This document shows positions 3,201 through 30,200 of a stretch of DNA of 64,000 nt, one piece after another; within the stretch, counting starts at the first letter, position 1; the number at the start of each line of letters is the position of its first letter. The notes beneath the pieces were generated by a model. The model searched no databases. It was not told the DNA's origin and was given only the letters and a program-made list of their open reading frames with translations. Made by a program: the position numbers and the translations under genes. This DNA comes from Sabellastarte sp. h YS-2021. Lineage: Eukaryota; Annelida; Polychaeta; Sabellida; Sabellidae. Location: NCBI GenBank assembly GCA_964017235.1, contig OZ024929.1, forward strand, positions 165,711,609-165,775,608, written 5' to 3'.

Positions 3201-6200
3201 GGTTTAGAGTTATCATTGCAGGAAGATTGAAAATATAATTTGAGTTATGTATTCGGCGTCTGGGGATACACCATCTTCCTTGGGGAGATATAAACAGAGT
3301 AGATTGATGTGCTGAAGTTCATATAATAATGGGTAATTATGTTTTAAAAAATTCCCGATCAAAACCTGTGGCGTGAGTGATGACCTGTCTGGGGATATGT
3401 TGGCGCCGAGTTGGCCCAATCTAGTTTATTTCTGTGATATTCCTGTGCATGCATAGTTTGTCAGCCTGGCTTATAGTGAGGCTTTACAGTGAACAGTTTG
3501 TGTGTTTAGCAAGCAACAATATGAAATACAGTATATCATACATCAAGAGATCATAAAATCTCTACTGAAAAAGGATTCCCTGATAATAGTGTATCTGTGA
3601 CTAGAGCCTGTGCCATTGCAAGTGCAAAATATACTTTAATTAAAATAAAATGAACGATATTCCACTTGAAAGTGGTAACTCTTTTAAATGTAAGTAAATA
3701 TCCTCAGTGTCTGTGGATGTTATACACCGGTAGATCTAATGTCAGATGATCTGACTTTTGCATAAGTTTACTCTGACATCTTTCTGAAATAGGCCAGTCA
3801 GTCATAGTAAAGTTACTATCAGCTGTTAAGCAGAGTTTTAGTAGAAATTGTGTAATAAGATATATTCAAAAATTCACATATTTCAGCCTGCAGTTGAGAA
3901 GCTCATATTTGGTTGTAAGAGTTTTGTGAGAATAATTACAATGAGGATGTTTATCTGTTTATGGCTTTCTATTTTTGACCTAATAATAACCTTGGCATCT
4001 ATGATGTTATATGTTTTTTTTATTGCGTTAATACATCCTACCCAATGGACAATATGCTTAACCAGTCGGCGCAGACCGGCCCGCCAAACGTCAGAAAAAG
4101 ACGTCCTGTGTTTCCACCGGCTGGCCGGTCCTCACACTGCACTCGCCAGGTGGCGTGTCGTACTTCCTTCCTGTCTAGACAAGCTGACGTCATAGCATCT
4201 TTTTCGTTTGGCGCATGCACTGCTTGAACGATTTTTGGAAATTGTATAATTATTTGGATTTTTTGTGAGTTGGAAGAAGTGCTGAACTTTATAACTTTGC
4301 GAATCACTTCCTCACATGTTATAGACCTTTTTGGAGTTCTCAGCTTCTCTGGAACGTTGTGAGTTTGTAGAAGTGCTGTGTTTTATACAACTGTTGAATC
4401 ACTTCCTCATGTTTTTTGTTACTCCATTATGTCTTCTCCTAGTCAGCGTCGGGGGGGATGCGGCCATATGATGGCAGGGTTTGACCATCACTCTGTGTGC
4501 GCGCGGTGTAGAGATAAGAAGGGCTCTGACCCCTGTATCAAAACTCCACCTGCTCCATGCGCGCCCTGTGACGACTTAACCCAAGAACAGAAGGATCAGC
4601 TTGCCACCCCCTCGTACAAGCTTAAAAAAGAGAAGAAAGAAGCCAAGTCATCTACGCCTCTTAAAGAATCAGACACTCTCAGTCCCACCCTTGTGGACCC
4701 GGCACTTGTGTCGGTAGTGGGGGTCGTGGATGGCCAAAGCACCTCTGGTGTTTCTGGTTTGAGTGGACCGGTGGAGAAGAAAGCAAAGAAGGCTGAGGCT
4801 AAGTATTCTACTAAAACCAAGTCTGATAAGCCGACCAAGTCTGATAAGCCGGCCAAGTCTACCTCCAGCCGACCACCAACTTCTTCAACCGACCAGGGCA
4901 AATCTACCACTTCCTCTACCGACACAAAGATTGCCGACCTTGATAAGAAGTGGTCGGACGGATTTAACCGGCTGGAAGCCTTGCTATTGGCTAAGACTTT
5001 GGACCCTCCATGGGACCCTGTATTCAGTACAGTGAAGGTTACGCCACCTCATGCTCCACCAGCTAATGTGGTCTGGACTGACCCATTTATTAAACCAGCC
5101 TCTCAACCCACCGACCCTGCTGTGGAATCACTGGCCACCGACTCATCTCATCACAAGTCGGGTGCCAAGGCCTCATTTTCTGCTCAACCGGACCCTACTA
5201 CATCGGTCCTGGTTCACAGACAGTTATCTACTGCCTTTGATGTCTCCCGCAAGGAATCCCTCTCTTCTAGTGATTCTGACTCTGACTCCCTATCATCAGA
5301 CCAATCCCCCCTGGACATCCTACCGGAAGAAGGTGAACTGTTGGACGATCAGAAAGCTAACCTATCTGATCAGGAACAATCTTTGTCCGAAGCACAATCT
5401 TACCGAGAAACCATGCAGGGGATCAGATCTTTTATGGGTTGGAATCACATACCAGACACTGATTCCGGTGCTACTACCTCAGAGGATAACCCGTTCGCGG
5501 GCCCCAAGTTGCACACACTGGGCAAGACCTTTGTCAACCTACCGACCGACGAATGGCTGTGTCGGAAGATGGCCAAACTGAACATTACACTGGCCCAGGG
5601 GTATCCTACCCATACTTCTGAGGCAGCAGGACTTTTGCGGGATCAGTTTGTTCGCCCCCCTAAGTCACAGCAAAAGTGGTACGGTTTTCATTCCAACCCT
5701 AAGAAGGACTCTGACCAAACTGTCTCCTCTTGGCATACTGGGGCTTCAAGGTTCAACAGCACCTATCTCAGGATAGCTCGACAGGCCGGCATTGCTACTT
5801 CTCCTCCCATGTCACGCACTATCTCTCAGGAAAGTCTGCGCAAGTGGGAGAGGTCTGCACGCGAATCCACTGTAATTTGCAATCACGCAGCCAGTTTTAA
5901 CCGGTGTCTGTTGAAAATCCAGGAGAATATGAACACTCAGCTAAAAGCCATCAGAGTAGAATCCAAGGGAAAGACAGCAACCAAAGTGTCATCAGCAGTA
6001 GACGAACTCCAATTTCTTCAAGATTTTAACTCTAGTGTGCGCCAGGCCATGGTGAAATCCATGGAACACTTGACGGAGTTCGTCTTTGTTAATATGGCCA
6101 ACACCACCTTGCTTAGACGCGATTCCTACTTAGCTTATCTCAAGGCCGGTGTAAAAGCTGACACTCTACATGCCTTACGTACCGCCCCACTCCAGTTGGA

Positions 6201-9200
6201 CACCTTGTTCCCGGACAGTGTTGTTAAGAGGGCGGAGGAAGACATTACTGGTTTTGATAAGGGTCGGTCCAGTTCAGTCTACAAGGGAAGGAGGTATCAC
6301 CCCTATGAGAGGCAGGACCCCAAAACGGAAAGTCGCCAAGAGAGGCCGGCTTGGAAGAATCTGTCCCGCACTCAGCGTAGGAAACAGAAGGGCAGACAAC
6401 AGTACTCATCACGACCGGCCAAGGGTCAGCAGCAGCGTAAATGACAATCAATGTGTAACTCAGTTGAAGCCTCTGCTGCTGACTGGGAGCCCTACAGGAA
6501 AGACAATAGACACTTGTTTAAATGCAAAGCTAGATGTTGTTCATTTTGCTCATACTGCTCCCGGGCATTCTCAAAAGAACAAAATAAGTTCCGGGACAGC
6601 AGGTTGTCTTTACAAGAAAGATATATTAAAACCTGTGAAAAGTGTTTCTTGTGTCATTCCATTATCTTATGTAAATGCTGTCTTAAATGCTCCAAATGTT
6701 GTCACAAATCTGCCTGTAGGGGCCAGACTTCAAAAGTTTTGGAAAAACTGGTTAGATCTGGGTGCCGGACCGAAAGTGGTTCAAATCTTGAAAGAGGGCT
6801 ACACCCTCCCCTTTCGGATCCGGCCGAATTTGTCAAGGACTCCCACAGTCATAAGCTGCTATGGCAATCCTCACAGAAACAGTCATGGACAAAAATGCCA
6901 TAGAACTAGTTCACAAAAAGGTCTCACTAGGTTTCTTCAACCGACTATTTTTAGTCCCAAAACCCGAAAACAAGTGGAGACCGATCTTAGACCTAAGCAA
7001 TCTGAATTTTTTCCTCAAGACAGAAAAATTCAAGATGGAGACACCGGAAACCATCAGAACATCTCTCCAAAAGGGGGAATGGGTAACCTCCGTAGACTTC
7101 AAGGACGCTTACTTCCACATTCCAATACAGGAACGGTCCAGGAAGTATCGCAGATTTCATATCCAGGGGCAGACCTACCAGTTCAAAGCACTGCCGTTCG
7201 GTCTGTCAACGGCTCCCATGGAATTCACTATTATAGCAAAGGAGGTGAAGCTGATGGCCATTCACAACGGTATAAGGATCCACCAGTACCTAGACGACTG
7301 GTTGGTGAGAGCCACATCCCACCAGGTCTGTCTCCAGCATACACAGGTCCTAATAAAAATGTGCTAACGTCTAGGTTGGCTGGTGAATGTAGAAAAGTCG
7401 GAGCTGAAACCCAAGCAGATTTTCAACTTCGTAGGTTACCAATTCGACCTCCAGTCCGGTCGGGTTTGACCGACACCGGACCGGTGGCAAAACCTTCAGG
7501 ACAAAATACTGGCTCTGATCTCCCTACCGGCCTGTTCGGTAAGGGAATTTATGTCCCTGATAGGGCTACTGACAGCCATAGAAAAACAAGTTCACCTGGG
7601 CAGACTACACATGAGGCCCATTCAATGGCATCTCAAAAGCAATTGGAGAATACCGGAATCCTTGGAAAAACGGATCCCTCTACCCAGATCGCTACATCCT
7701 CATTTGCAATGGTGGCTGAAAGAAGACAATGTCCTCACCGGCCAACCATTACACCCCATGCAACGTGCTCTGCAAATCTTTACTGACGCATCAAAAGAAG
7801 GGTGGGGCGCTCACTTAAACGAGTCCATTGCCAGAGGAACCTGGTCAGTGCCGGAAAGCAAACTGCATATAAATTACTTGGAACTAAAAGCAGTCTTTCT
7901 GGCTCTAAAAGAGTTCCAAAAGCTATGCACGGGCAAATGGTTCTGGTAGCAACCGACAACACCACAGTAGTGGCCTACATCAACAAGGAGGGAGGCATGA
8001 GGTCGGGCCAACTTTGTGCCCTACTTTGGAGAATCTTGACCTGGTGTACCAGGAAACAAGTGACTCTGAAGGCTCGACACATTCCCGGCCGCCTAAATGT
8101 AGTGGCAGACAAGCTGTCCAGATTGGGACAGACTATTCAAACAGAATGGTCCCTCCTTCCAGAGGTTTTTCAAACCCTGTGCAGCAGGTGGCACCGGCCT
8201 CAGATAGATCCCTTTGCTACGAGATTCAACAACAAGGTGCCCCTGTTCGTATCACCAGTTCCGGATACCATGGCCACTGCAGTGGATGCACTCAGTTTGT
8301 CATGGGAAGATCTGGATGCATACGCCTTCCCACCGACAGCCATATTGGGCAAAGTGGTGGAGAAGTTGCAGGACTCCCCATACCGGAGGCTGATCATTAT
8401 TGCCCTGGGGTGGCCCAACATGACATGGTTTTGGGACCTAGTGGAAATGTCCAGCCAGATCCCATTGCTCTTGCCTCAACTGCCAAACCTACTGACCCAA
8501 CCCTTCAATCAGACCCCTCACAGGAGTCTGACAAACCTAAATCTCCATGCATGGCTCCTAGAGCCACAGCTATCAAGGAGCAGGGTTTCTCTGAGGCGGT
8601 GGCAACAAGAATTGAGGCTCCTCAAAGAGGATCAACCAGATCTGTCTATGAGGCAAAGTGGGCCATTTTTACAAAGTGGTGCATCACAAATCAGGTGGAC
8701 TTCAGGGCACCTCCTGTAAAATCAGTTGCTGATTTCCTTATGTACCTTTTTGAGGAAAGGAAATTACAGCCCAGCACCATTGACGGCTACAGGTCTGCCA
8801 TTGCTGATAAACTGGGAAACTCAACTCTCAACATCAGCAAAGATGAAAATCTCACCCGTCTCTTGGATAGTTTCCATAGGGACAGACCCAAGGGCAGAAG
8901 ATGTATCCCCTCCTGGAACCTATCTCTGGTTTTACACCAGTTAACAAAGGCTCCCTTTGAACCAATTAAGGAGACCTCCTTGAAGCACTTGACCTTCAAG
9001 ACAGTTTTCCTCTTAGCCCTGGGTTCAGGCAAACGCAGAAGTGAGATTCATGCTTGGCAAAGCAGGAACATCAGACACCAGTCGGACTGGTCTAAGGTGT
9101 CCCTGTACCCATCTCCCAGCTTTTTTTCCAAGAACCAGCTGGCCAAAGAGGGTCCGGACAGCGTGGCCCCAGTGGTTATACCAGCCCTGGCCCCGACCTT

Positions 9201-12200
9201 GGACAGGTCCCTCAAGTCTGACAGATCCCCCTGTCCGGTCAGAGCATTGCGCTACTACTTGGACAGGACCTCAGACATCAGGCAGAATAAGGAGTTAGTT
9301 TTTGTCTCCTTCAAGAAAGGTTTTCACAAAGATATCTCCCCTGCCACTATCTCCTCATGGATCAAACAGACTGTGATCCTATGTTATGAGCTCTCAGACC
9401 AAGAGGCCCACACCTTACATCAGGTCAAAGCCCATGATGTTAGGGCCTTTGCTACTTCCAAGGCCTTCCAGTCGGGAGTTTCCTTGGAACAAATCTTGTC
9501 AGCCTGCCACTGGAAGTCACATAATACCTTCACATAATTTTATCTGAAGGATGTGGCATGGGCGGACTCTGAGCTCTATCACCTGGGACCTGTAGTGGCT
9601 GCTCAGCAGATCCACAAGTAATCCAGGTCAGGGAGGAGATCTGTACATATGTATATAGTGTATATATAATTAAGAAGCATCAAAAAAAAAAAAAAAAAAA
9701 AATCAGACGTGCTTTCTTCGGGAGGTTTATTTCCTTGGGACTGAACTCATCCCTCTCTTCCCCTACCTCAGAGCAGGTCTGTAAAAGAAGGAGGGAGGAG
9801 GCGAGTCGGTTTGGACCGTTTAACCGGTTTCTGTTGACCGACTATAGCCTTAAGGGTCTTGACAATCCTAGATCAACCCAGGCTTAGAGTTGTTAGTTAC
9901 TTTCTGAGTTTGCATAAGTCCCCAGTAACTTACCCACTGACCAAGCGGTAGTTATTCAGGATATTGTCCATTGGATAGGATGTATTAATGCAATAAAATT
10001 GCAAATTTAATAAGTAAATTAAATTTTTATAAGTTAATACCCTATCCAATGGACACACAAGACCCTCCCACCAGCCCCGCTATCAGTTTACTAGGGGTCT
10101 AATAAGTTTAGACAATGAAAAAGATGCTATGACGTCAGCTTGTCTAGACAGGAAGGAAGTACGACACGCCACCTGGCGAGTGCAGTGTGAGGACCGGCCA
10201 GCCGGTGGAAACACAGGACGTCTTTTTCTGACGTTTGGCGGGCCGGTCTGCGCCGACTGGTTAAGCATATTGTCCATTGGATAGGGTATTAACTTATAAA
10301 AATTTAATTTATTTATTAAATTTGCAAATTTGTAGACCTTTAGGACAAGAGTTCCTGGTGAGATTTGCTCAGATATTTAACATAGAAATTGTTCAGTGGC
10401 CGGAATCAATAAAAATACAGGTAAGAAACTACTTCATTTGCATAGTTTTCAAAGCATATAAAAATCTCAGTCTGGCATGTTTTATGGTGAGTACAGTGTC
10501 AAGTTTCATTAAATAGTACCAGTGCTCCAATGTACATGTCACCAGTATCGTTTTTCTCAAATATTCAATTTTCTAATACTATAAAACTCATCACATTTTC
10601 ATTCTTATTATCTGTAATCTGACATAATATATTGTAAATCAGAAAGGAGTCTTTCAAAAGTTGGTCTAGTTGTTTCCAGTTAACTGGTAATATAATAGAA
10701 AAAAATAGACTGAGGTGACTGCATGATATATTGTAGATAGAACGAGTTACAAGCTCTCTATTCATTATTCCAAAATTCAGCTTAAACAAAACAAGTGTTT
10801 TATATTTTAACATTGAACATTTTATATGTATCTTGAAAAAAAACAAAAAAAAAAACAACTATTTTTTCATATCTAGATCTACGAGTCAGCTGGTATTGGC
10901 TCATCCATGGTAGCGGAATTGTATGTAGCTATCCCAGAATCCAACATCACCACGGAAACAATGCAGCTAGAGGAAATAGACTATTCTGGAAGCCAGAAAG
11001 TCCACCACACACATGAAGGTGTTGGAAGTGGTAAGCATATGACTTCATGAAGTGTTGACGGCATGATGTAAATGTAACAGTGTCATTAAATGTAACCATA
11101 CCAGTGTTTTGTCATTAACAACCCTTGGAATCAGATCTCTGATAGAGTTTTTTGTTTTCATGGTGAATAATATGTGTCTGGGTTTTTACCAAATAGTTGG
11201 TTTATGATTCATTTGGGGTCCTTGATATCAAAGTTAAGGTTCAGGTAATTTCAGTTCAGACAGATATTCAGGAACAACAAAAATACTTCTTAGCAGGATT
11301 TCCAGAGTTATTGGAGCTTGTTATTGTGGGTTACCTTTATGCGTCGCAACTCTTGGGAGGTAATAAGACTTATCTTTTTGGTTGTTCAGTAGTAAGACTG
11401 TCCCTTCACTCAGTACAAGTTATGTTTTATGTACAAGTTGTAGCAGCCTCCCAAGTTTTGCTTGACTGGTGTTTCCAGGTGTTTAACACTAAAATACCCG
11501 TACCCAGATTAGTATGGTTCTCATTTTACAGTTACTTGGCCCCATTTGTTAACGCTCGACGATAGGAGAGGGTTATTGTGATCAGTTTGTTTCTGTCTGT
11601 CGGTCTGTCTGTCTGTGCACCGTTTCGCCCTTATAACTCAAAAACTATAATACCAATCGAGCTCAAATTTGGTGGGCAGATATTTCATGGGGTAGAGATG
11701 GATTCTTGAAAATTTGATGTAATTTGTGTGAAAATTAAAGCCAGGAGAGAGTTTTTCTTATTTGTAATTGGGCTTTTACAGTGAAATCTGCTTCCCTGTC
11801 TGTGAACCGTTTTTCCCTTATAACTCAAAAACTATAACATCAATCAATCTCAAATTTGGTGGGAAAGTATTTCATGGGGTACAGACAGATTCTTCCAAAT
11901 TTGGTGTAATTTGTTTGAAAATTAAAGCCAGGAGAGAGTTTTTCTTATTTCTAATTGGGGATACACAGTGAAACTGCTTCTCTTCATCACATAAGTAAAA
12001 AATCAATATTTTACTTTCTGATGATGTCATTACTCAGTGATGTCACAATGCAACTGTCATTGTGAGGTCACAAAACTAGCTTGTGATACTTGCTGTCTTT
12101 AAGTAAAAATATTTCTTCTCATTTTATGTCTTGAAATTGACATAAACATAATAAAGAGGGAGGTGGTATATTCATCACTTTTATTAACAAGATGCACTCA

Positions 12201-15200
12201 GAGAGAGCAAAACGCTCGACTCCATGTGACCAGTCTCTCAAGTGATATAAAGTATTGTAAGGAAGACAAATAAAACCAAACATGTAAAGTAATCTTCATA
12301 GAAATATCAAGTAGAAAGCTAAAGTCATTAAAAATACATTGAAATGGGACCTCTGAAAAATCATGATTTTTTATGTCGTCACTCTGCGGCGTGGGCGTCC
12401 GCATCCGCGTGAACAACTTCTCCTCCAAAACTACAAGGCCTAGAGACGTGCTGTTTTTTTTTAAAAGATACCTTATCTATCGAGGATGAAAAATTGTTCA
12501 AGGCATGCAAATCTGTCTGTTCGTCTGTTTGCTAGAGACATTACAAGGGGGGTACCCCCACCAAAAGTGTGAAAATTTCAACACTTAATCACAATTTTCT
12601 CAGTGACTATTGCAGGGATTTCTCTCATATCTTGCATATATGTACTAGGCCACAGGTAGATTCTCTTGTGTGAGTATGAGACCTGGATCTGTCTTACTTT
12701 TTTTTTAATAAATTTTTTTAATAATTTTTAATGCATTAAAATTCATGAAATCATGCACAAAATCATTTATAACTTGAAAAGTGTTGCATTTAGAGATTTT
12801 GTTAAAATATGTTATTCAGCTACTTTTTTCATAGCTACAATATGGTGAGTAAGTTGGGTGCCTGTCTCAATAGCTAAGTGAGTAATAGCTACTTTTGGGC
12901 TTTTCAGTAACTTCCATCATGAGTAAAATCACTTGTAACTTAAAAACTATTGCATTTAGAGAATTTCGTATAAATATGTTATTCAGCTACTTTTGGGTCA
13001 GCTATAACATAGTAAAATTTTAGACCTGTAGCTCATGGCATAGCTGAGTAATAGCTACTTTTAGGTTATCACTGTTGAGTAAATCGCTTATAACTTCAAA
13101 AATATTGCATTTAGAGAATTTCGTATAAATATGTTATTCAGCTACTTTTGGGTCAGCTATAACATAGTAAAATTTCAGACCTGTAGCTCATGGCATAGCT
13201 GAGTAATAGCTACTTTTAGGTTATCACTGTTGAGTAAATCGCTTATAACTTGGAAACTATTGCATTTACAGTATTTTGTTGCATATATTATTCACCTATT
13301 TTGGGATCAGCTATAACATAGTGAAGTTTCAGATCTGTGGCTCATTGCATAGCTGAGTAATAGCTACTTTGAAGTTCTCACTATTGAGTAAATCACTTGT
13401 AACTTAAAACCTATTGGATTTAGAGAATTTCGTATAAATATGTTATTCAGCTACTTTTGGGCCAGCTATAACATAGTGAAATTTCAGATCTGTAGGTCAT
13501 GGCATAGCTGAGTAATAGCTACTTTAAAGTTCTCACTATTGAGTAAATCAGTTGTAATTGGAAAACTATTGCATTTAGAGAATTTCGTATAAATATGTTA
13601 TTCAGCTACTTTTGGGTCAGCTATAACATAGTAAAATTTCAGACCTGTAGCTCATGGCATAGCTGAGAAATAGCTACTTTTAGGTCATCACTATTGAGTA
13701 AATCAGTTGTAACTTCAAAACTATTGCATTTACAGTATTTTGCTTAAATATGTTGTTCACCTACTTTTGGGTCAGCTATAACATAGTGAAATTTCAGACC
13801 TGTAGCTCATTGCATAGCTGAGTAATAACTACTTTGAGGTCATCACTATTGAGTAAATCAGTTGTAATTGCAAAACTATTGCATTTAGAGAATTTAGTAT
13901 AAATATGTTATTCAGCTACTTTTGGGTCAGCTATAACATAGTAAAATTTCAGACCTGTAGCTCATGGCATAGCTGAGTAATAGCTACTTTTAGGTCATCA
14001 CTATTGAGTAAATCAGTTGTAACTTGAAAACTATTGCATGTACAGTATTTTGCTTAAATATGTTGTTCACCTACTTTTGGGTTAGCTATAACATAGTAAA
14101 ATTTCAGACCTGTAGCTCATGGCATAGCTGAGTAATAGCTACTTTGAGGTTATCACTGTTGAGTAAATTGCTTATAACTTGGAAATTATTGCATTTAGAG
14201 TATTTTGTTTCAATATGTTATTCACCTATTTTGGGGTCAGCTATAACATAGTGAAGTTCCAGACCTGTGACTCATTGCATAGCTGAGTAATAGCTACTTT
14301 GAAGTTCTCAATGTTGAGTAAATCACTTATAATTTGAAAACTATTGCATTTAGAGAATTTCATTAGTGGTGTCAAGGCATCACGCCTGTCAGTCCCCACC
14401 TCAGGGAGAAGATTCGGAGCAGTGTGACTGGGGCTTAAGTAATGCCCTCTGACCTTAATGACTGTATCCATGGTAAATGCCAGGTCATCCAATGGCTAGT
14501 GGCCTCCTATTATTATAGGGCTCAAAGTGGAGGGAAACTGCCACTTTTAAAACTGAACTTGATGGAAGTAGAAGGATAATTTCGAATTTGAACATGAACT
14601 TTGTTATGAATCTGCCGATTATTTTATTTTTATGTGTTGTGCATTTTAGTTGATTTTAATTGATTAAACGGTCATTTAGTGTTTTACAGAATATCTTATT
14701 TACACCTTCACCACTGGAACTCTGCGTTTGCTATCTGCTGAACTTTGTGACTATATATGCTGATGCTGTTTGCAGTTATTTCTTTGACAACCTCATGCTT
14801 GTTTTGGCTTGTATAAACCCACTAAAAGGGATGGTCTAACCTATTTTTTCTTTTGATTGTCATCCATTTTATGCTAGCCATTACGGCCTGAGATTGTCAA
14901 GGAATACGGGGGATACCCATCTGTCTAGCGTATTTTTCAGAAAATTATAAAATGACTAAGCCAAAGGCAAAAAATAAGAACTATTGTTCTGCATGTCATG
15001 AAAAACACATCCCTCCCACAGGGAAAAAATGTCAATTGAAAAAACAACCAGAAATGGAACTTGCAAGTGTGAATGGTGCCCAGCTGAGGTCTAATGCCAG
15101 TGATAGTGATGTGCCGGACTCGGGGGTGGGGGCTTTCAATGTTAACATGAGTGCCATGAAAACTAAAAAGCAGAAGGACTGCTCTGTTAGGAAGGTGGTA

Positions 15201-18200
15201 GTTGCAGGTCGTGCCACATCAAGTGATGAAGATGCAGAAACATCAGAAGACGAACAGCACTCATCTGGTGGTCTGCAAGCCCTCATTCTCCAGCAACTCC
15301 AGCGAGTAGCTTCACGGTTGGATGCAGTAGAAGACAGACTGGAAGATCACAGCCAGGGCAGAACTACAAGCAAGGACAGTACCAAGTTAAGTACTTCTCA
15401 GAGTGTAGTTAAAAATAAACAGAAAAGTAACAAAAGTAGTAAAAGTAAGGTGAAACATGTAGTGTCCGAGTCGTCATCAGATGACGAAAGTTTACCATCT
15501 TTGTCTGTGTTAAGGTCATCTCGTGATATCCAAAGGGCTGTTGATAAAAGATTGGCTGAAATCGAAAATATCTCACATGATCAAGGTTGAAGTCTCGGTT
15601 TCCAAGAAGGTTGCATGGCCCTATGACAATGTATTAGGCGGAAATACCAGACAAAGGGTCACATACGACCAGTTATCACTAACTCAGTTTATACAGGGTT
15701 TTGCTAGAAACATGATTGATGAGAAAGACAGTGACATAAGAGAGCACATGTTGTGGTACCTCCATTATCTCATGGAGGATGCCACTGATTTTACGTGGAG
15801 TAGTGCTAAAGCTGCCCATGCTGTGCTCCTCTGCGAGATGGAGAGGGGCACAGTATGTTGGTCTGATACAAACCGAATAGACCGGATCCGTCGCGCCCAT
15901 GCCCAAAAACACACCCATTCTGGCAGGCAAAATTGGGTTAAAAAGGATTTCGACCCCAATAAACCATGGTTCTGTAAGCTATATCAAACAGGTTTATGTC
16001 AATATACAAAGGATCATGAATTTGCAGGAAAAATCCAAAAACATATTTGTGCAAATTGTCTGAGTCTAGGAAAAATCGCTGGTCACCCTCAAAAGGAATG
16101 TCATGCGACAAAACGACAGCCAAAAAACGAAGGGGGAGCTGCTCAGCAGTAGCAAATAGTGTGAGCAGCTCAGATCAGAACAGTGGTGATATAGTTGCTG
16201 TAAATAATAATGTGCAAAGTTTTAGTTCTGACGCTGTGCGTCATAATGTATGTGTAAATTCAGAGCAGTTTGACGGCTCACAGACTTGTACCAAACATAA
16301 ATTTCAAGATTGTAGAGGTGTTTCTTACAACCAGGTTCGAACCAGGATCTTTTATAACTCTGTTATGGATAAAAGGCAAGTCCAGGGCCTGTTGGCCCGA
16401 GGTAGTAAGGCCTGCCGGGTAACTAGTCACCTAGATTGTCAGTCATGCTACAGATCCAACTGAATGTACCATTGTTGAGAGCACTGATCGGGTCAGTGCG
16501 AATGGTGCCTTACATGGTTTTCCCACTCCACATAATGAAAACCCACACTCTTTTGTTGAAGCAAACAGTCGTGTCCACACCTCTGGGGATAACAATGGGG
16601 CCCCAATTAATAAGTCTGTCAGCACTTGTGATAACAAAGGGGTTAAATCTTGTAATCAGTCATTGAATGACCGAAAGTGTCATAACTCACCAGGTGTTAG
16701 TCATTCACACAATGGTACAATGTGGGGTGCGAAATCCAGGGTGCCAAAGTCCATTGATAGTAGCGTTCATGAAAGTGACACTGTAAAACATAGTACTTTT
16801 GTCAATAATGACAATGATTACCCAATGTCAAGTGAAAACTATGGTCCATATGCCCTGATTTATGATGTTAATACTGATCAAAATGGATTTGGTGCTGAGT
16901 TGTCCAACGCGTTGTTTTTTAAAAATGGTTGGAAAAAACATGAACAATACTTGAAAGAAAATTGTTCTGATTTTAATCTGTGGAGTACACAAACAGACTA
17001 TCAATTTGGGTTCGTGCCTCTGAGTAATTTGGTATTACCTAACAACCCAGGTCATATTGGTGATAGGGTCGATGATCCCATTCAACAGCATTTTCGGGTC
17101 AAGGCCACTGGTATCCCGAATTTTTTGGGAGCAAGAATCCCAGTCAAGTCTCAGCTGAATGTGGAAGAGTGGCAAAAAATTTTAGTGAATTACTGGGACA
17201 AGCAACTCATACACTTAATACAATTCGGCTTCCCTCTGGATTTTAATAGGGCTTCTACCTTGACTCATGGCGATGAAAATCACTCTTCAGCCAATGACCA
17301 CCCAATCGATATTCAGACTTATCTGCAAGAAGAAATTGAACATGGGGCCATCATTGGCCCATATGAGTGTAGCCCTATACCAAATTGTCACATATCCCCG
17401 TTCATGACAAGGGAGAAACCAAATGCTCCCAATAGACGAGTGATTATTGACTTGTCATGGCCAAAGGATAATTCGGTCAATGCTGGGGTAGATAAAGATT
17501 CGTACCTGGGTTCGGAATTCAGTCTGACGTTCCCCACCATTGATGATATCACCAGTGAGCTAGTAAAGCTGGGACCTGGGTGTCATATCTACAAAGTCGA
17601 TATCAGTAGGGCGTTTCGCCATTTGAAGATAGACCCCCTTGATTATGACCTCTTGGGTTTACGTTGGGACGCAACGTTCATTGATACGTGCCTGCCCTTC
17701 GGGAGCAGACACGGAAGCCTGCTTGCGTAACGTCCTTGAACGCCTGGGTTTAACCATCAGTGAGAAAAAGCTAGTTCCTCCAACAACGCAGGCGGTTTGC
17801 CTAGGTATCCTCATTGACACAGTTAATGGTACGGTATCCATACCAGAAGAAAAATTGCGTCAAATCAAACGCAGCGTCATTGAGTGGCAACAGAAATGCG
17901 TCCGTCCGGCCAGACTATTCTTGGACAGGATGCTGGATCTATTGCGTCAGAATTATGACGCCTCTTCCATCAAGCTCACCCAGCCCTTCAAACGTGATCT
18001 CAGGTGGTTTACCAGGTTTCTGGAGAACTATAATGGCGTTTCTATGTACACACACAGGAAAATTGACCACGTGGTCAAACTCGACGCATGTCGTGACGGT
18101 TTAGGCGCAGTCTGGAAAAATTATGTGTATCACTTACCCATCCCCAGTCATTATTTGAACCTCACCATTGTGCATCTGGAAATGATTAACATTCTAGTGG

Positions 18201-21200
18201 CAATTAAAGCTTTTGGCCCATTTTGGGCTCAGAAAAAAGTGTTGGTCAAGTGTGACAACCAGGCTGTAGTTTCAGTGCTTAGACACAGTAGAACTAAAGA
18301 TGCTTTTCTGGCTGCTTGTGCCAGAAATATATGGCTTCTGGCTGCCTGGTATGACCTAGAAATGAACTACGTCCATATTAAAGGCAAGGAGAATATTGTA
18401 GCTGACTTATTGTCCAGGTGGAGGAATACCCCAAATGACATCCTTAAGTTGCATTCACACATAGCTGACCCTCTGTGGTTACAGGTCCCAGGTGAATTTT
18501 TAGACCTGGATAATGAAATATAAGTAAAATCTGTAGGCGCATATCCTATCATGTTGTACACCTAGGCATAATCACATATTAGATACTCAGATGCTGCACT
18601 TTGTTTTGTAGAGCCAGTACTGGAGAGGTTGGCTGTGGGAGTCAAAAGACGTCTGGCTTCTGCCCTCAGACCTAAAACAGAGAGCTGCTATGCTTCATTG
18701 TTCAGGTCCTTTGTGGCCTTTTGTGTCTGTGTTAAATTAGATATCTCGCAATTGAATGTAATGCATGTGTTGTCTTATTTGGAGTACTTAATCACACAAA
18801 AAGTAACTGCTAACATGTTGGCCAATCATGTCTCCGCTTGTAGGGCCAAATTTATCATGAATGGTTTGCAGTTTGAGCTTTGGGATCACCCCAACGTGCG
18901 TTATCTTTTACGCTCAGTAAGAATTAACAGGCCTATCATGGTTACAAAGAAGCATGTCATTGATCTCAGTACCCTTCATCAAATGGTAGCCCTTTGTGAA
19001 GATATGTACCTTGGACAAATATTTAAAGCTGTTTTTTTATTAGCCTTTTTTGGCTTCCTTAGGTTGTCCAACATCGCCCCTCATTCCCTCAGTTCATTTG
19101 ACCCTTCTAGACATTTATGTGCTGGTGATCTCATTTTTGGCCAACAGTTTCTGAAGGTCATATTGAAATGGACAAAAACCATTCAAGGTAGGGATAAGGT
19201 CCATTTACTCACCTTGCCAAAAGTAAAGGGTTCGAACTTATGTCCTTATCAGGCATGTAAACAAGCCTTAAAGCTGTACCAACCATCGTCCAATCAACCA
19301 CTGTTTCAGTTTTACAGCAATAACCAATGGATTGTCCTCACTGATACCAGGATACGTAAATTTTTGGCCAGAATCAACATTAAACTAGGTCTTCCCAGAA
19401 ATTACTATACCTTCCATGCCTTCAGGAGGTCTGGTGCTACATTAGCTTACAACTCGAAAGTACCCATTCCCCAGATCAAGGACCACGGGTCCTGGTCTTC
19501 TGATTGCGTTTGGACCTACATCCAAAAGGACCACACCAATGGTGAACATATTGCCTCTATATTTGCTCACTTAATACGATAATGTTGCCTACTTGTTGGG
19601 CTTTGAGGGTTTTCTTTTATATAAGTATAAATATGGTAAGTTTGGCATTAAAACTTAAGCCTACTGCTTAATATTCAGTTTACATAAAACATTTGGGTAA
19701 AAGGGGGGGGGGACCCTTACATTGCCTTGTCTTAATCTCGGTTTAAAGGTGAGGTCTTCCTGACCTCAAACTTAAACTGATTTTCTGATGGGTCAATCTC
19801 ACTTTACGTTGAAACTTAAAGTTTTGTTCATAAATTTATGTTCAGTAATCCATCTCTTTGTAGAGTCATTGATGTTTGTGTATCTTGTATTTAGTATAAC
19901 TTAACCATCACTGCCTATTTTACATTAGTTGTGTATTGCAAAGCTAGCATAACATTCTTAGAATAATTTACTGAAGCCTGTCTGTAAAGTTAGTGACTGT
20001 TTGTCACTCAGTGCATGGACTGGACACTTACATCTATTGGCTTCAATTTTCTAATTAGTAGTCTTATTTACTCCTTTTTACATTTATTTATGTATTGTAA
20101 ACATATAAATTACTTGTTATGTATAAATAAACCACATGCTCCGCCTTGTGTTTCTCACTGGGGTAGGGGGACTGTAGTATAAATATGTTATTCAGCTACT
20201 TTTGGGTCAGCTATAACATAGTAAAATTTCAGACCTGTAGCTCATGGCATAGCTGAGTAATAGCTACTTTTAGGTCATCACTGTTGAGTAAATCAGTTGT
20301 AACTTGAAAACTATTGCATGTACAGTATTTTGCTTAAATATGTTGTTCACCTACTTTTGGGTCAGCTATAGCATAGTGAAGTTCCAGACCTGTAGCTCAT
20401 GGCACAACTGAGCAATAGCTATTCTCAGGCACTGACTGTTGAGTAAATCGGCTATAACTTGAAAAATATTGCATTTGGAGTATTTTGTTAAAATATATTG
20501 TTCACCTACTTTTGGGTTAGCTATAACATAGTGAAATTACAGACCTATAGCTCGTGGCATAGCGGAGCAATAGCTATTTTCAGGTTCTCACTATTGAGTA
20601 AATCAGTTGTAACTTGAAAACTATTGCATTTACAGTATTTTGCTTAAATATGTTGTTCACCTACTTTTAGGTCAGCTATAACAGAGCAAAAATTCAGACA
20701 TGTAGCTCATGGCATAGCTGAGTAATAGTTACTTTGAGGTTCTCACTCTTGAGTAAATCAGTTGTAACTTGAAAACTATTACATTTAGAGTATTTTGTTA
20801 AATATGTTATTCACAGACGTTTTGGTCAGCTATAACATAGTGAAATTGCAGACCTCTATGTCATGGCATAGCTGAGCAAAGCTTCTTTCAGGTTCTCACT
20901 GTTGAGTAAATCATTGTATCCAACCTGTAGGAAATCATGGGCTGGGAATCTGTTAATATGGTCCGATTTGACCTTGGAACCCTCCTTCAAGGTCAAATAA
21001 GGATAGCCAAACATAAAAGTGCTTATAACTCGCTTATTATTGGTCCTAGAGGTTTGGAATGAAAACCAACCTATAGAAAATCATGAGCTGGGAATTTTTT
21101 GGTGTGGTCGGATTTCACCTTGGACCCCTCCTTCAAGGTCAAATGAGGATAGCCAAACTTAAAAGTGCTTATAACTCACTTATTATTGGTCCTAGAGGTT

Positions 21201-24200
21201 TGGAATGGAAAACCAACCTATAGAAAATCATGGGCTGGGAATCTTTTGGTGTGGTCGGATTTCACCTTAGACCCCTCCTTCCAGGTCAAACGAAGATAGC
21301 CAAACTTAAAGTGCTTATAACTCGCGTATTATTGGTCTTGGAGGTTTGGGATGGTAAACCAACATATAGGAAATCATGGGCTGGGATTCTTTTGGTGTGG
21401 TCAGATTTGACCTGGGACCCCTCCTTCAAGGTCAATTGAGGATAGCCAAACTTACAATTGCTTATAACTCGCTTATTATTGGTCCTACAGGTTTGGGATG
21501 GTAAACAAGCTACAGGAAATCATGGGCTGGGAATTTTTTTGTGTGGTCGGATTTGACCTTAGACCCCTCCGTCAAGGTCAAACAAGGATAGCCAAACTTA
21601 AAAAGTGCCTATGACTCACTTATTATTGGTCCGACAGGTTTGGAATGGTAAACCATCCTAAATTCTTTGGCTGGGAATCTTTTGGTATGGTCAGATTTGA
21701 CCTTTGGATCCCTTCTTCATGGTCGAACGAGGATATTGCATTTATAGTATTTCTTTAAATATTTTTAACCTACTTTTTACACTTAAACAATTACCTTGTT
21801 ACTTTATTTCATAATACCATTTGCAGGGCACAACTTTTTTGTCCTTTTCTTCTGTCAGCTTCGGAATATCTTTCGAACATGCTGTTCAGTTACCATTTAC
21901 TGTATTTCTGTACAGCCCTTTTCCTGATATTTATGCTTTCCTCTCATTATCACCATCAGAAATCAAAAACATTCAGTCAGCTGACACAGTGCCCATTCAC
22001 GGGCACTCTCCTCTTGTTTTTTTTGTATCCAAAATAAGATCCAGATCTTTCTTTTAGTAACTTCTTCCTTCAGTCAGGTTCTACCCACAAATTTTTAAAT
22101 AAAGATCTGTTCATTAGTTTTGGAGTAATCTAAACACACACACACCCACCCACCCCCAGACAACCTCCCCCCCCCCCAAAAAAAAAAAAAAAAAAAAAAA
22201 AACCAGACAAATAGACAATTAAACAATCAGCACACAAAAACTTAGACTGCTGGTGGAGGTAAAAATATTGCTTAAAGGTCACTTCTTGATGAAAATCACG
22301 CATGGTAATTTTTTGTAATGGACTGTCAAGGAATTGAAAGAAAAAAAAGAGAAAATAAAACAGAAATAGTAATTAATAAAAATGATGAATATACCATCTC
22401 CCTCTTTATTATGTTTATGTCAATTTCAAGACATAAAATGAGAAGAAATATTTTTACTTAAATACAGCAAGTATCACGAGCTATGTTTGTGACATCACAA
22501 TGACAATTGCATTGTGACATCAATGAGTAATGACATCATCAGAAAGGAAAGTATTGATTTTTTACGTATGTGATGAAGAGAAGCAATTTCACTGTGTATT
22601 CCCAATTAAAAATGAGAAAAACTCTCTCCTGGCTTTAATTTTCAAACAAATTACACCAAATTTGGAAGAATTCATCTGTACCCCATGAAATACCTTCCCA
22701 CCAAATTTGAGATTGATTGATGTTATAGTTTTTGAGTTATAAGGGTAAAAAGGTGCACAGACAAAGAAGCAGATTTCACTGTAAAAGCCCAATTAAAAAT
22801 ACGAAAAACTCTCTCCTGGCTTTAATTTTCACACAAATTACACCAAATTTGGAAGAATTTGTCTGTACCCCATAAAATACACGCCCACCAAATTTGAGCT
22901 CGATTGGTGTTATAGTTTTTGAGTTATAAGGGCGAAACGGTGCACAGACAGACAGACAGACAGACGGACAGACAGAAACAAACTGATCACAATAACCCTC
23001 TCCTATCGTCGAGCGTTAATTATTATTTCTGTTTTATTTTCTCTTTTTTCTTTCAATTCCTTGACAGTCCATCACAAAAAAAATACCATGCATGATTTTC
23101 AACAAGAAGTGACCTTTAAGCAATATTTTTACTTCCACCAGCAGTTTATATTTTTGCGTGCTAATTGTTTTAATTGTCTTTTTTTGTGTGTGTGTGTGGG
23201 GGGGTGGTGCGTGGGTGTGTGTGTTTAGATTACTCCAAAACTAATGAACAGATCTTAATTTAAAAATTTGTGGGTAGGACCTGACTGAAGGAAGAAGTTA
23301 CTAAAAGAAAGATCTGGATCTTATTTTGGATACAAAAAAAATTATAATTTTTCAGAGGTCCCATTTCAATGTATTTGACTTTAGCTTTCTACTTGATGTT
23401 TCTATGAAGATTAATTTACATATTTGGTTTTATTTTATTGTCTTCCTTACAATATTTTATATCACTTGAGAGACTGGTCACATAGAGTCGAGCGTTTTGC
23501 TCTCTCTGAGTGCATCTTGTTTTGCCCTGTATCACATCTGAGATCAAAATTTAAGTGAAAGTGAGAGACACAAGACATAATGTTCACACTATTTACAGGA
23601 GTGGCTTTCAGTTTTGAGAAGAACAACAGTAACATGATGTCGCTGATGACCACAGGCACACTGTCCACCACCGTCGGGTGGGGAGTGGACAACAATGGCA
23701 TGGTGTTGGTACCTCCTACAAAAGGAAAGACTGAGAACATATACAGGTAAATATTTGAACAGTCATCAGAAGCATTTTACAGGGGAAAGTGTAAGCAAAA
23801 TGAAGACTGAAAACATGGTCAGGTAAACATATAAGCAATCAATGGAGTTATGTACACCTGAAAAAGCATAAACAAGCCAACAAAAATATATCAGTTACAG
23901 GAACATTACAAAGTAAATTTTTATTGCGTAAAATAGCCTTACCTTATCCTCACAAATGTTTATTTGGTTTTGTGGAGGCAAAACTCGGCGACCAACAAGA
24001 ATATTTAAAAATTTATTCTTGTTCGAGAGGTGAACCCCGTAGCTACTAGTGCTGCGCCGATTAGTGGTCCATTCGATGCATTGATCGATGACAGCATCAC
24101 TTTCGATGCATCGATAAAAAAAACGAAATTCGGAAAGCCGAAAAAGGGTTGAGGTCTAGTATGTTTCCAGTCGAACCAAACGAAAGAGGAAGTGATTTTC

Positions 24201-27200
24201 CGTAAAATAAATATGGAGCAGTTTTTGTCCCAAAATATCGCATTAGAATTGTTGAAATGTACTAAAATATTATATGAAAGTGTGGATTAGTTATTTACTC
24301 TGTAAGTTTTGTATGGTTTTAATGTCTGCCGATGCATCGAATTATGCATCGATCACATGTGGGCGATAATCGAGTGGGTTTTGCAGACCGAGTCGCAGCA
24401 CTAGTAGCTACAAATGAGTGTGCATTCGCACAAGTCGTCGGCTGGAGTTTATCGAGAGATCCTCATTTAGTTTTTGCTTGTGGAGGCAAGACGTTTTCTA
24501 CGAAGATGGCAAAGTCTCAGCTGAAGAGTACTAGATTTGCACCTGGCTGTGGTCACCCCATTTTTGATTGGGACACACATAATCACTGCTTTCCTTGCCA
24601 TAAAAATTGGACTGATCAAAGTTCTGTACATGAAACAGCTAGCTTTTCTTCAAAGAAAAGAGACAGGTCACCCTTCCCTCATGAGGAGGTAGATGATGAT
24701 CCCTCATATAGAGAAACACTGGTGGCTATATGAACTCTTCTACAGGTTGAAGTTCCTGATGAGTCTGCTGACCAGCCAGTCAAAATTTGGTTCCCGAAGT
24801 GGGGATTTGAAAAGAAAATCTACCCTTCCTATGGTGATGCCACCACCAGAAGACATTGTTGAGAGATGGCATTTTTACGAAGCATAATCCAAAGAAAGGG
24901 GAACCTGAGAGACTGCAATCCAGCCCTGTAAATGCAGACACCTTTTTGTCATAAATCTTCAACTTCTGAATTCAGTACCAGTGCACCTATGTGCCAGGAT
25001 GCTTTCAAATACCTTGTTCCCCAAGGTGATACCTTCATCAGTGCATATACCTATGAAGCAGCTGACTGTTATTGAGACAGTTATTCGCAAGAATACCCAA
25101 GTGCTGTCTTATGTTAACTGGTTTTTAAAGGCCATTGGCAAAACTACGAGTTCCATGGAGCAACTTCTCCAACAGACGGACCATAATTTTTCAAAAGAAT
25201 GTGAGCTGATCTTGGCTCACCTACACACGCAGACTTCCTGTCTAAATTCCTTGGATAAAGCTTTAGAAACAGTCACAGGTTTGTCTATTGCTCTTGCCTG
25301 TAACTTACAGTTAGCTAGGAGGGATTCTATTCTGAAGGTCTGTGCTCCTTACCTTCATGAGCACTATTTTAATAGGCTCAAAAGGACAGGCTTTAAAGCA
25401 GGGGATCTGTTTTGTGCTGCTGCACTGGATCAGATCCAAAAGAAACATGAGAGATCTCCCAAGAGACAGAAATTAGATTCCAGGCAGTCTTTCCATTCAA
25501 AAAGACATGGGGAAGACAGGCGTTCTTCTGGCTCGCAAGGTTCCTACTCCAGTTCTTTTCATGGCCAGAGCAATACAGAAAACAACCCTACAAGACATGG
25601 GGGGAAATAGGAGAAAGTGACAACCAAAGTCAACTGTCTCATGGAGGCTGTTTGCAGTACTTCTGGAAGGTATGAGAAGATCTTTATTGTCACCCAAGAG
25701 TTGTGCAAATCTTGAGGCGAGGTTATCGAATAATACTTCAGTCGAATCCGCCCATGTCTGTACATCCCATAATTCAAAGTGGTTACAACAGAAAAGAAAA
25801 CATGGCTACCTAAAATATTGCGTGTCTCAAATGCTTCATAAAGTTGCAATTTACCATCTCAAGGATTGCACATCTCCAGGTTTTTACAGCAGATTATTTC
25901 TTGTTCCAAAACTTGGCAAAAAATGCCGCCCTGTGATAGATCTCCGTGTCCTGAACGATTATATGCTGGTTCCAACTTTCAAAATGGAAACAGCAGAGAT
26001 AATCAGAAACTCGGTCACAAAAGGTGAATGGCTAGTTTCGATAGACCTGAAAGATATGTACTTTCACGTGCCCACACACCAAGATTCTCAACATTTGCTA
26101 CGTTTCCATGTAGACAAACAAACGTATCAGTTCAAAGCACTGCCATTCTTCAGTCTCGTGGAGTTCGAGTTCACCAATACCTGGACGACTGGTTGTTAAG
26201 AGCAAATACCAGACACCAGTGTCAGCTCCAAACAAAAGAACTCATCCAAACTATTCAAGAACTTGGCTTCGTGATGAACTTTGAGGAAACCGAGCTCGAG
26301 CGAACACAAAGAATCAATTTTCTAGGTTACCATTTCGATCTAGTACAAGGAAAGGTCTTTCCAACTGAAAAGAAATTAAAAATGCTAGAAAAATCAATTC
26401 AGGACATGGGCTTCTCTTCACAAACAACCCCAAGATTGCTTATGTCCCAGAAAGGTGTACTGGCATCTCTAGAAAAGATATTACCTATGGACAGGCTCCA
26501 CATGTGTCCCTTCCAGTGGTATCTAAAAACTCATTCGCAGTATCCCCAGTCTCTAGATATGAAGATTCCTGTTTCAAATCTTCTGAAAGGGCATCTTTAG
26601 TGGTGGAAAAATCCAAAAAATTTGAAAATGGGTTGTCCTTTACATCCACAGGAACACAATACCCTTATTTTCACAGATGCATCAAACTAGGGTTGGGGAG
26701 CCCATCTAGAAAACATGATAGTCAGTGGCATTATGTCCACCCCCCTGGGCGGTGACTATATTATTTTTGCTTTTTCTGCCGTCTGGCGTCCGATGTCCGG
26801 CGTCACGCATGGTTTCCGCTCATTTAAAGGAAAAGTATTAGAGCTATTGTCACCAAATTTGGTATGCAGGCTTATTGGGTCAGTAGCTTGCTTGGGATTG
26901 CTTTTGGCTGTTGTACCTCTTTTGCTTACTGAGTAATACTTAAGTACAGCTATTTTCAGTACCCATTGGTTTCCGTGCATTTAAGCCAAAATAATTAAAG
27001 ATATTTTACTACAATTTTGAATACAAGATTGTTATGACCATAGCTCGCTTGGTATTGCATTTGGGACTGATAGCTTTGTCAGTACATGAGTAATAGCCAT
27101 TTAGGTACTTCATTGTGTATTTTCAGTACTACTTTTGAGTAATTTGCTAATATCTCAGAAACCGTAAGAGATAGAGCGATTTCGACAGAATTTTTGACCC

Positions 27201-30200
27201 ACAGGGTAGTAGAAAAGTATTCTATACAAAATTTTAAAAATTTTCAATTTTCGCCACTTTTGGCGGCCATCTTAATTTTTTGCGAAAAATGAAAGAATCT
27301 TAATATCTCGGAAACCGTAAGAGATAGAGCGATTTGGACAGAATTTTTGACCCATAGGGTAGTAGGGAAGTATTCTATACAAAATTGAAAATTGAAAATT
27401 TTCGCCACTTTTGGCGGCCATCTTGAATTTTTGCGAAAAGCGAAAAAATCTTAATATCTCAGAAACCGTAAGAGATAGAGCAATTTGGACAGAATTTTTG
27501 ACTCACAGGCTAGTAGAAAAGTATTCTGTACAAAATTTAAAAATTTCAATTTTCGCCACTTTTGGCAGCCATCTTGAATTTTTGCAAAAAACGAAAAAAT
27601 CTTAATATCTCGGAAACCGTAAGAGATAGAGCGATTTGGACAGAATTTTTGACCCATAGGGTAGTAGGAAAGTATTCTATACAAAATTGAAAAGTTTCAA
27701 TTTTCGCCACTTTTGGCGGCCATCTTGAATTTTTGCGAAAAGCGAAAAAATCTTAATATCTCAGAAACTGTAAGAGATAGATCGATTTGGACAGAATTTT
27801 TGACCCGTAGGGTAGTAGGAAAGTATTCTATACAAAATTGAAAAATTTCAATTTTCGCCACTTTTGGCGGCCATCTTGAATTTTTGCGGAAAAACAAAAA
27901 ATGTTAATATCTCGGAAACCGTAAGAGATAGAGCCATTTTGACAGAAATTTTGACTCGCATGGTAGTGGTAGAGTATTCTATGTGCAATTGAAAAATTTC
28001 AATTTTCGCCACTTTTGGCGGCCATCTTGAATTTTTGCGGAAAAAAGTTAATATCTCGGAGACAGAGCGATTTCGACAGAATTTTAATAGCCATTTAGAT
28101 ACTTCATTGTGTATTTTCAGTACTACTTTTGAGTAATTTGCTAATATCTCAGAAACCGTAAGAGATAGAGCGGCTTCGACAGAATTTTTGACCCACAGGA
28201 TAGTAGAAAAGTATTCTATACAAAATTTAAAAAATTTCAATTTTCGCCACTTTTGGCGGCCATCTTAATTTTTTGCGAAAAATGAAAGAATCTTAATATC
28301 TCGGAAACCGTAAGAGATAGAGCGATTTGGACAGAATTTTTGACTCACAGGGTAGTAGAAAAGTATTCTGTACAAAATTAAAAAATTTCAATTTTCGCCA
28401 CTTTTGGCGGCCATCTTGAATTTTTGCGAAAAACGAAAAAATCTTAATATCTCAGAAACCGTAAGAGATAGAGCGATTTGGACAGAATTTTTGACCCATA
28501 GGGTAGTAGGAAAGTATTCTATACAAAATTGAAAAATTTCAATTTTCGCCACTTTTGGCGGCCATCTTGAATTTTTGCGGAAAAACAAAAAATGTTAATA
28601 TCTCGGTAACCGTAAGAGATAGAGCGATTTCGACAGAATTTTTGACCCGTAGGGTTGTAGCAGAGTATTCTATGTGAAATTGAAAAAATTCAATTTTCGC
28701 CACTGTATACTAATAAATATTTAAGCATCCATATATTTTACATATGAAACGGGGTCTTGTAATACTACTGTACAATTTTGGCAAAAGGTTCATGGGGTGG
28801 ACATTACACATGATAATGTGTGTTCTATGCTATCCTGTTTCTATTCGTATGTCGCAGCTACAATCAACAGGGCGTCCTATTTCTAGTTTTTGTTCAAATC
28901 AAGAAAAAGCATTACATATCAATGTTCTAGAACTAAAAGCAATGTTTCTAGCTCTAAAAAGCTTGCAAAACAAAATTCTAAACCAAAGAATTCTGATAGC
29001 AACAGACAACGCCACTGTAGTGAGTTATCTGAACAAACAGGTGGCTACACACTCATGGGACATGTGTCTCCTAGTTTGGCACATCTTGGCCTACTGCAGT
29101 CCTCGAAATATTCTCATAAGAGCTGACATATTCAGGGTTGCCTCAATGTCGTAGCCTACAGCCTCTCCAGAATGGACAAAGTGATTCAGACAGAGTAGTC
29201 CCTTCATCCACAAATGTTCAATTTGATTTGCAAAGTTTGGCACAAACCAGCGGTACATATGTTTGCCACCAAAATGAATCACAAACTTCCACTCTATGTC
29301 TCACCAGTCCCAAATGCAAATGCACTGAACATAGATGTATTAAACATCTCATGGGAGGGTCTGGATGGCTATGTCTTTTGTCCTGTAGCTCTCATTCCAA
29401 ATGTCATTCAAAAAATGAACACCTACAGGTGCAAGATGATTGTAGTGGCCCCAGGTTGGCCCAGGATGCATTGGTTTTGGGATCTAGTGAATCTGTCGAC
29501 CAAATCTCCATTACAACTACCTCACTGGCCTCATCTATTGAAACAACCATTCAGTCAGAAATACCATCAGAATCTGTTGTATCTGAACCTTCCTGGTTGG
29601 CACCTAGACACCACATAGACTCACTTGAATCATTCTCTGAGCATGTGGCAGAGAGAATTAAGGCACTTCAAAGATCCTCATCTAGAAAATTATATGAGTC
29701 AAGGTGAGCCATTTTTGAACTCTGGTGCCAACAGAATCAGGTGGTCAGCTCAGGGCCTACTATCTCAAACATAGCAGAATTTTTGAACCACTTATTCACT
29801 ATCAAAAATCTGAAACCTGGTACTACTGCTAGCTATAGGACTGCCATAGCTGATCATTTGGGACAATTTGGCCAGGAAGTGAGCAAGAGTTTGAACCTGA
29901 ATAGACTTCTTACAAGCTTATATAGGAGAGGTATTCCTTCTTGGGATCTGTCTTTAGTCCTCATGGCTTTGAGTAAGGCCCCTTTTGGGCCTCTAAAGGA
30001 TGCAAGTCTTAAGCTTTTGACTTTTAAGACTGTCTTCCTCATGGCTTTGGCATCTGGCAAAAGATGGGGGGAGGTGCATTCTTGGACATATTCTTCCCTC
30101 AGACACAAACCACCCTGGAAGGAGGTCACTATTTCTCTTTTTGCGTTCTGGGCTAAAAATCAATTGGCCCCAGATGGTCCAGATTTGCTCAGACCGGTGG

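Follow-up and report, generated by a model that had tools for sequence, protein, structure and literature searches.

A DIRS1-like retrotransposon of 6,310 bp lies within the cilium gene CC2D2A of the annelid Sabellastarte sp. h YS-2021, in sense to the gene, and ends 8 bases before one of its conserved exons. The window (the whole stretch of DNA analysed) comprises 64,000 nucleotides (nt) of contig OZ024929.1 (assembly GCA_964017235.1, positions 165,711,609–165,775,608, forward strand). An earlier reading of this window from its letters alone (the sequence-only reading) had named a DIRS element with its right end near 10327, and both points are confirmed: the identification by inverted repeats, an internal complementary region and a reverse transcriptase, the position by the internal complementary region, other copies and a paralogous empty site. 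As only 8 host bases stand beside the exon, the branch point and most of the polypyrimidine tract must come from the end of the element. The best explanation, which we consider likely, is an insertion guided by a short core, after which the tail of the element supplies the branch point and tract and the exon is included at a near-normal level. Such use of the tail and near-normal inclusion are predictions.

The CC2D2A exons and the borders of the element

The exons and the parts of the element that define the site are as follows.

3–64, + strand: 3′ part of a CC2D2A exon that runs off the left window edge; PF15625 match at window −31 to 62; splices in frame onward, donor GTAAGT at 65
4018–10327, + strand: DIRS1-like element, delimited by inverted repeats, internal complementary region, ends common to other copies and a paralogous empty site
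4042–4205, + strand: left inverted terminal repeat, conserved core; 164 of 164 positions identical to the reverse complement of 10117–10280
9955–10055, + strand: internal complementary region, which in reverse complement reads as the right end followed by the left end; between recombinase frame and right repeat
10117–10280, − strand: right inverted terminal repeat, conserved core; pairs with 4042–4205
10286–10327, + strand: right extension, AT-rich and AG-free, with branch-point-like yTnAy motifs; a proposed source of branch point and tract for the exon
10328–10335, + strand: host remainder of the intron end, ATTTGTAG, made up of the integration core ATTTGT and the acceptor AG
10336–10420, + strand: CC2D2A exon, 85 bp; PF15625 match at window 10337–10423; frameshift if skipped
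10877–11030, + strand: next CC2D2A exon, 154 bp; PF15625 match at window 10871–11047; in frame
23599–23746, + strand: 148-bp CC2D2A exon, the fourth in the window; PF15625 match at window 23595–23717; in frame

Splicing of the four exons gives a single open frame, and the peptide of the first three matches PF15625 (CC2D2AN-C2, the CC2D2A N-terminal C2 domain) at 1.8e-29. CC2D2A also has a second C2 domain and a C-terminal transglutaminase-like part. A search of the 1.79 Gb genome with PF15625 finds four places over the cut-off, all collinear at the CC2D2A locus and none elsewhere; the identity given to the gene by the sequence-only reading is borne out. The 85-bp exon is bounded by AG (5′) and GTAAGA (3′), and together with its downstream intron it matches only itself in the genome, a single exon copy in the assembly. 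Its loss from the transcript shifts the frame, as had been foreseen, and leads to a stop after 11 further codons. The name ‘exon 2’ given to it earlier is right for the window (it is the second CC2D2A exon there) and wrong for the gene, part of which lies beyond the left edge. Exon-like peptides at 32.5–34.9 kb and 59.7–61.5 kb were assigned by eye; the one CC2D2A exon-like peptide of this kind submitted to Pfam gave no match.

The element starts TTTTATTG and finishes GCAA. The reverse complement of 9999–10055 has 1 mismatch in 57 to the right end (10271–10327), that of 9955–9998 has 4 in 44 to the left end (4018–4061). Other copies end in the same way. A ranked search scored 39 of them, 29 with loci (L002–L030); all 29 end in GCAA, beyond which the flanks diverge, and the exact GCAA terminus recurs in 164 of the 168 right ends collected besides that of the window copy (see below). 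The 85-bp exon as a piece of the element is ruled out by the variation of these flanks and by its uniqueness in the genome.

The joined flanks of one copy (L048 on the left, L003 on the right), which is about 1.3 kb shorter inside than the window copy as judged from coordinates, align gap-free across unoccupied units of a host repeat, for example with 87.5% identity over the 120 positions of window 13540–13659. A paralogous empty site without a gap implies that insertion duplicates nothing and removes nothing, and that the bases past GCAA are host. On this basis the uninterrupted CC2D2A intron end is predicted to have read ATGTTTT, then ATTTGTAG. A convention published in PMC3266345 assigns a terminal NTT (present in 23 of the 28 elements annotated there) to the element. 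Counted in this manner, the exon keeps 5 adjoining host bases instead of 8. The repeat whose unoccupied units (~155 bp) supplied the empty site forms arrays at window 12920–14279, 20285–20868 and 57715–58447, which several DIRS copies have entered.

All of this rests on one assembly, in which the element could have been placed at CC2D2A by error although it is not there in the animal. Both borders lie exactly at the ends common to other copies, and the host bases fit the target core; we regard such an error as highly improbable.

The splice acceptor and the age of the insertion

Next to the 85-bp exon the host intron end is reduced to ATTTGTAG, everything further upstream being element. Over the 49 nt before the acceptor there is no AG, and five yTnAy motifs are found 20–43 nt from it. 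The pyrimidine share at −20 to −4 is 0.53 in the filled site, 0.65 in the joined empty site and 0.53–0.82 in nine other window acceptors attributed to CC2D2A (two through Pfam, seven by eye). The filled acceptor is thus predicted to be weaker than before the insertion, yet within the range of its neighbours. The earlier claim that branch point and tract are taken from the element follows from this layout as an inference, with the correction that the host keeps 8 bases and the element would supply only most of the tract.

In the mechanism we propose, the retrotransposon recombined, without target duplication, into the core ATTTGT at the end of the polypyrimidine tract of the CC2D2A intron. The acceptor AG and the six preceding bases were left in place, and the host branch point and remaining tract were displaced by 6.3 kb. 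Because the right extension brings an AG-free, AT-rich stretch with branch-point-like motifs 20–43 nt before the acceptor, the exon is probably still spliced in. Several points weigh against near-normal splicing from the element tail. The tract is weaker than that of the joined empty site, and inclusion may have dropped; the features of the tail are not strong evidence, because yTnAy motifs and stretches free of AG occur often in AT-rich sequence; and the intactness of the exon means little, since 85 bp would gather less than one change at this age. The idea that the right tail has been selected for splicing found no support here beyond these common motifs.

The insertion might instead damage CC2D2A, the exon being mostly skipped or the transcript ending in the element, with the animal carrying the insertion as one of two alleles. 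The weaker tract would agree with this, as would the early stop that skipping yields and the AATAAA motifs that the element carries in sense at 7352 and 9992–9997; the second, inside the internal complementary region, is a candidate polyadenylation signal that might threaten the host transcript. However, the acceptor features do not fall outside those of the nine acceptors used for comparison, and apparent exons right after other copies suggest tolerance, if those exons are real and used. We consider damage unlikely and the effect proposed at CC2D2A plausible.

The coding frames of the element are listed here.

4363–6444, + strand: first open frame, in gag-like position, 693 codons stop to stop; no Pfam match over the cut-off
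6855–7367, + strand: reverse transcriptase stretch (PF00078, 8.2e-19), ended early by a private stop
7470–7949, + strand: RNase H-like stretch (PF17919, 3.9e-4; PF17917, 7.9e-4; both below the curated cut-off)
7909–9537, + strand: frame with tyrosine-recombinase-like stretch at ~8730–9537 (PF02899, 2.5e-4; PF00589, 0.0019; both below the curated cut-off)

In DIRS1-like elements a methyltransferase-like domain is expected between RNase H and recombinase. A scan of the frame at 7787–8719 with Pfam, which was without a model of the DIRS domain, gave no methyltransferase, only RVT_3 at 5.8e-4, below the cut-off.

The sequence-only reading had called the insertion young and possibly polymorphic, and its terminal repeats identical. 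Identity holds for the 164-bp repeat cores, whereas the internal complementary region departs from the ends at five bases. The identical cores agree with a young age, whereas the nearest relative among the 29 copies is 2.15% divergent (38/1,764), and other pairs are closer, the nearest among some copies being only 0.17–0.28% apart. When 2.3 kb of the element is searched against the whole genome, the same relative is again the best other match (98%). Polarisation of the substitutions against four outgroup copies leaves 43 changes on the window copy alone and 28 on the relative alone among the 3,735 positions compared, with 6 assigned to neither. The reverse-transcriptase frame has two stops absent from all five relatives compared; the window copy is without 26 bases found in four of the five (the fifth is not aligned there) and without one base found in all five, and the early end of its recombinase frame is common to one of them. 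The age claim is therefore softened: the insertion is recent yet not fresh, and the copy, with its pol and recombinase frames disrupted, is broken.

Core preference and other copies near exons

In 78 right flanks selected solely by an internal 46-mer, independent of the flank, the six bases after GCAA read NTTTNT, with T in 73, 76, 49 and 56 of the 78 at positions 2, 3, 4 and 6. The element's own circle junction reads TTTTAT at the core position, as expected if the recombinase requires a matching core. ATTTGT, the core entered in CC2D2A, ranks among the best 0.4% of window sites, and for intron ends the mean favourability is 2.2 times that of background (ten regions, of which one was mis-placed and scored lowest). 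The core preference makes landing beside an acceptor likely, because NTTTNT with an AG after it already amounts to a T-rich acceptor. An AG right after the core is not clearly enriched (7/78 against a mean of 4.4 per later position; 12/138 against 7.9). An ATTTGTA consensus among L002–L030 was discarded as evidence, because the flank of the window copy itself had entered the alignment behind the ranking of those 29.

The 168 right ends consist of 139 picked without regard to the flank (83 from the 46-mer list, 19 from the genome-wide element search, 37 from further regions) and the 29 of the ranked search. From the 100 places of the 46-mer list 86 were taken up, the others being 6 that were among L002–L030, 7 of the 8 that form a tandem array on contig 2, and a single further place. 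The genome-wide search with 2.3 kb contributed 34 of its 39 other copies, of which 14 were dropped for having no tail in the stretch, and 40 further regions were taken. Also dropped were L062, L065 and L188 (no tail), L152 (same site as L077), L198 and L216 (DIRS flank) and L211 (wrongly anchored). L187, with a 9-base flank, is excluded from the 167 used for rates. The array on contig 2 (G000:C2:24104219-24130660) is built of this DIRS, with eight right-terminus 46-mer matches in 26 kb spaced by ~6.4–6.7 kb or 249 bases. At L198 and L216 a DIRS-like left end directly past the right end indicates copies head to tail or inside older ones.

Five of the 168 right ends lie in sense 8–42 nt upstream of an apparent coding exon.

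L178, sense: 8 nt before an apparent exon, again ATTTGTAG; no Pfam match, the only PDB hit unrelated (E 0.6)
L189, sense: 16 nt before an exon of poly(A) polymerase (PDB 3.8e-4; Pfam 0.0018, below the curated cut-off)
L165, sense: 20 nt before an apparent exon; no Pfam or PDB match
L105, sense: 26 nt before an exon of NOX2 (PDB 7.4e-21)
L098, sense: 42 nt before an apparent exon, acyltransferase-like (Pfam 0.066, below the cut-off; no PDB match)

We take the L165 exon to be NBAS-like, which Pfam and PDB did not support, and that of L098 is presumably AGPAT-like, again not confirmed by either. At L189 and L105 the host branch point has probably been displaced as at CC2D2A. Farther away in sense two exons were recognised: 126 nt out, one of a cyclin (5.9e-6), and 171 nt out, one of a sugar transporter (L081; 0.0048, below the cut-off). 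No antisense host exon was recognised by eye on the candidate frames of 101 and 130 flanks, a set to which no homology scan was applied. A mechanical test for acceptor, open frame and donor gave 14/78 in sense and 10/78 on the reverse strand, no clear difference.

One account of these neighbours is chance: with a few thousand copies some will lie beside exons, and there would be no tie to acceptors beyond the taste for T-rich cores. The element is abundant enough (575 exact genome matches to one internal 46-mer, first-look candidates in thousands). The near exons number 3/83 in the 46-mer sample, 2/19 in the genome-wide sample, 0/37 in the further regions and 0/29 in the ranked search, and two of the four samples hold no recognised exon within 45 nt; the lack of clear AG enrichment after the core points the same way. 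Against chance, five near exons compare with ~0.56 expected from the exons farther out (five near against two far, rate ratio 8.9, p 0.007), and no antisense host exon was recognised. The same rate test gives p 0.07 with three near exons and p 0.21, not significant, with the two clear matches (NOX2 and poly(A) polymerase). If 200,000–300,000 coding exons are assumed, 0.4–0.6 near exons are expected and five have p <0.001, or p 0.003–0.016 when the core preference is allowed for. On this evidence we lean slightly towards chance, and we treat recurrent landing at acceptors as an unproven lead.

The bolder alternative is that the family habitually lands between branch point and AG, in sense, that the right extension replaces branch point and tract, and that the insertions are nearly silent and can persist in essential genes. 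Such a habit is proposed because the preferred core followed by AG already has the form of an acceptor; we think it possible but doubtful.

Related elements and significance

Two further stretches of the window resemble retroelements. A second DIRS-like element at 23919–31155 holds pol- and recombinase-like frames between two left-end-like motifs, inverted, at 23919 and 31155. At 14892–19579 long open frames resemble another retroelement, with reverse-transcriptase-like and recombinase-like peptides recognised by eye.

The element in CC2D2A is like the DIRS1-like retrotransposons, including molluscan ones, described in passages of PMC3266345, with which it has in common inverted repeats with a conserved core, a right extension, an internal complementary region, reverse transcriptase, RNase H, a terminal NTT and duplication-free integration through a short core. 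It is longer than the 28 elements annotated there (3,974–6,283 bp). Introns and acceptors are not discussed in those passages, and the word ‘intron’ occurs 0 times in the paper (PMC3266345). Dictyostelium DIRS-1, in the passages of PMC5633606 that describe it, is likewise a recombinase retroelement with an internal complementary region that integrates by recombination; unlike the pattern considered here, it is said to prefer its own copies and centromeres, not intron ends. Among the entries listed by a full-text literature search, outside which most subscription papers fall, no title or abstract start concerned DIRS landing at splice acceptors.

The canine merle element is said to be of the non-long-terminal-repeat type and to have a target duplication. 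Located in PMEL17, it is comparable as an insertion at an intron–exon border able to affect the gene, but it differs in its reverse orientation and its poly(A) tail, according to PMC7349775.

If an empty CC2D2A allele exists, the two alleles would form a clean pair, with the same exon and AG and all beyond 8 bases upstream swapped for element DNA. It is the possible tendency to land at acceptors that deserves genome-wide attention. If DIRS elements do use acceptors as landing sites and bring splicing signals with them, this would be a new low-cost way for a mobile element to live within genes, and a natural experiment on the looseness of branch-point definition in animals.

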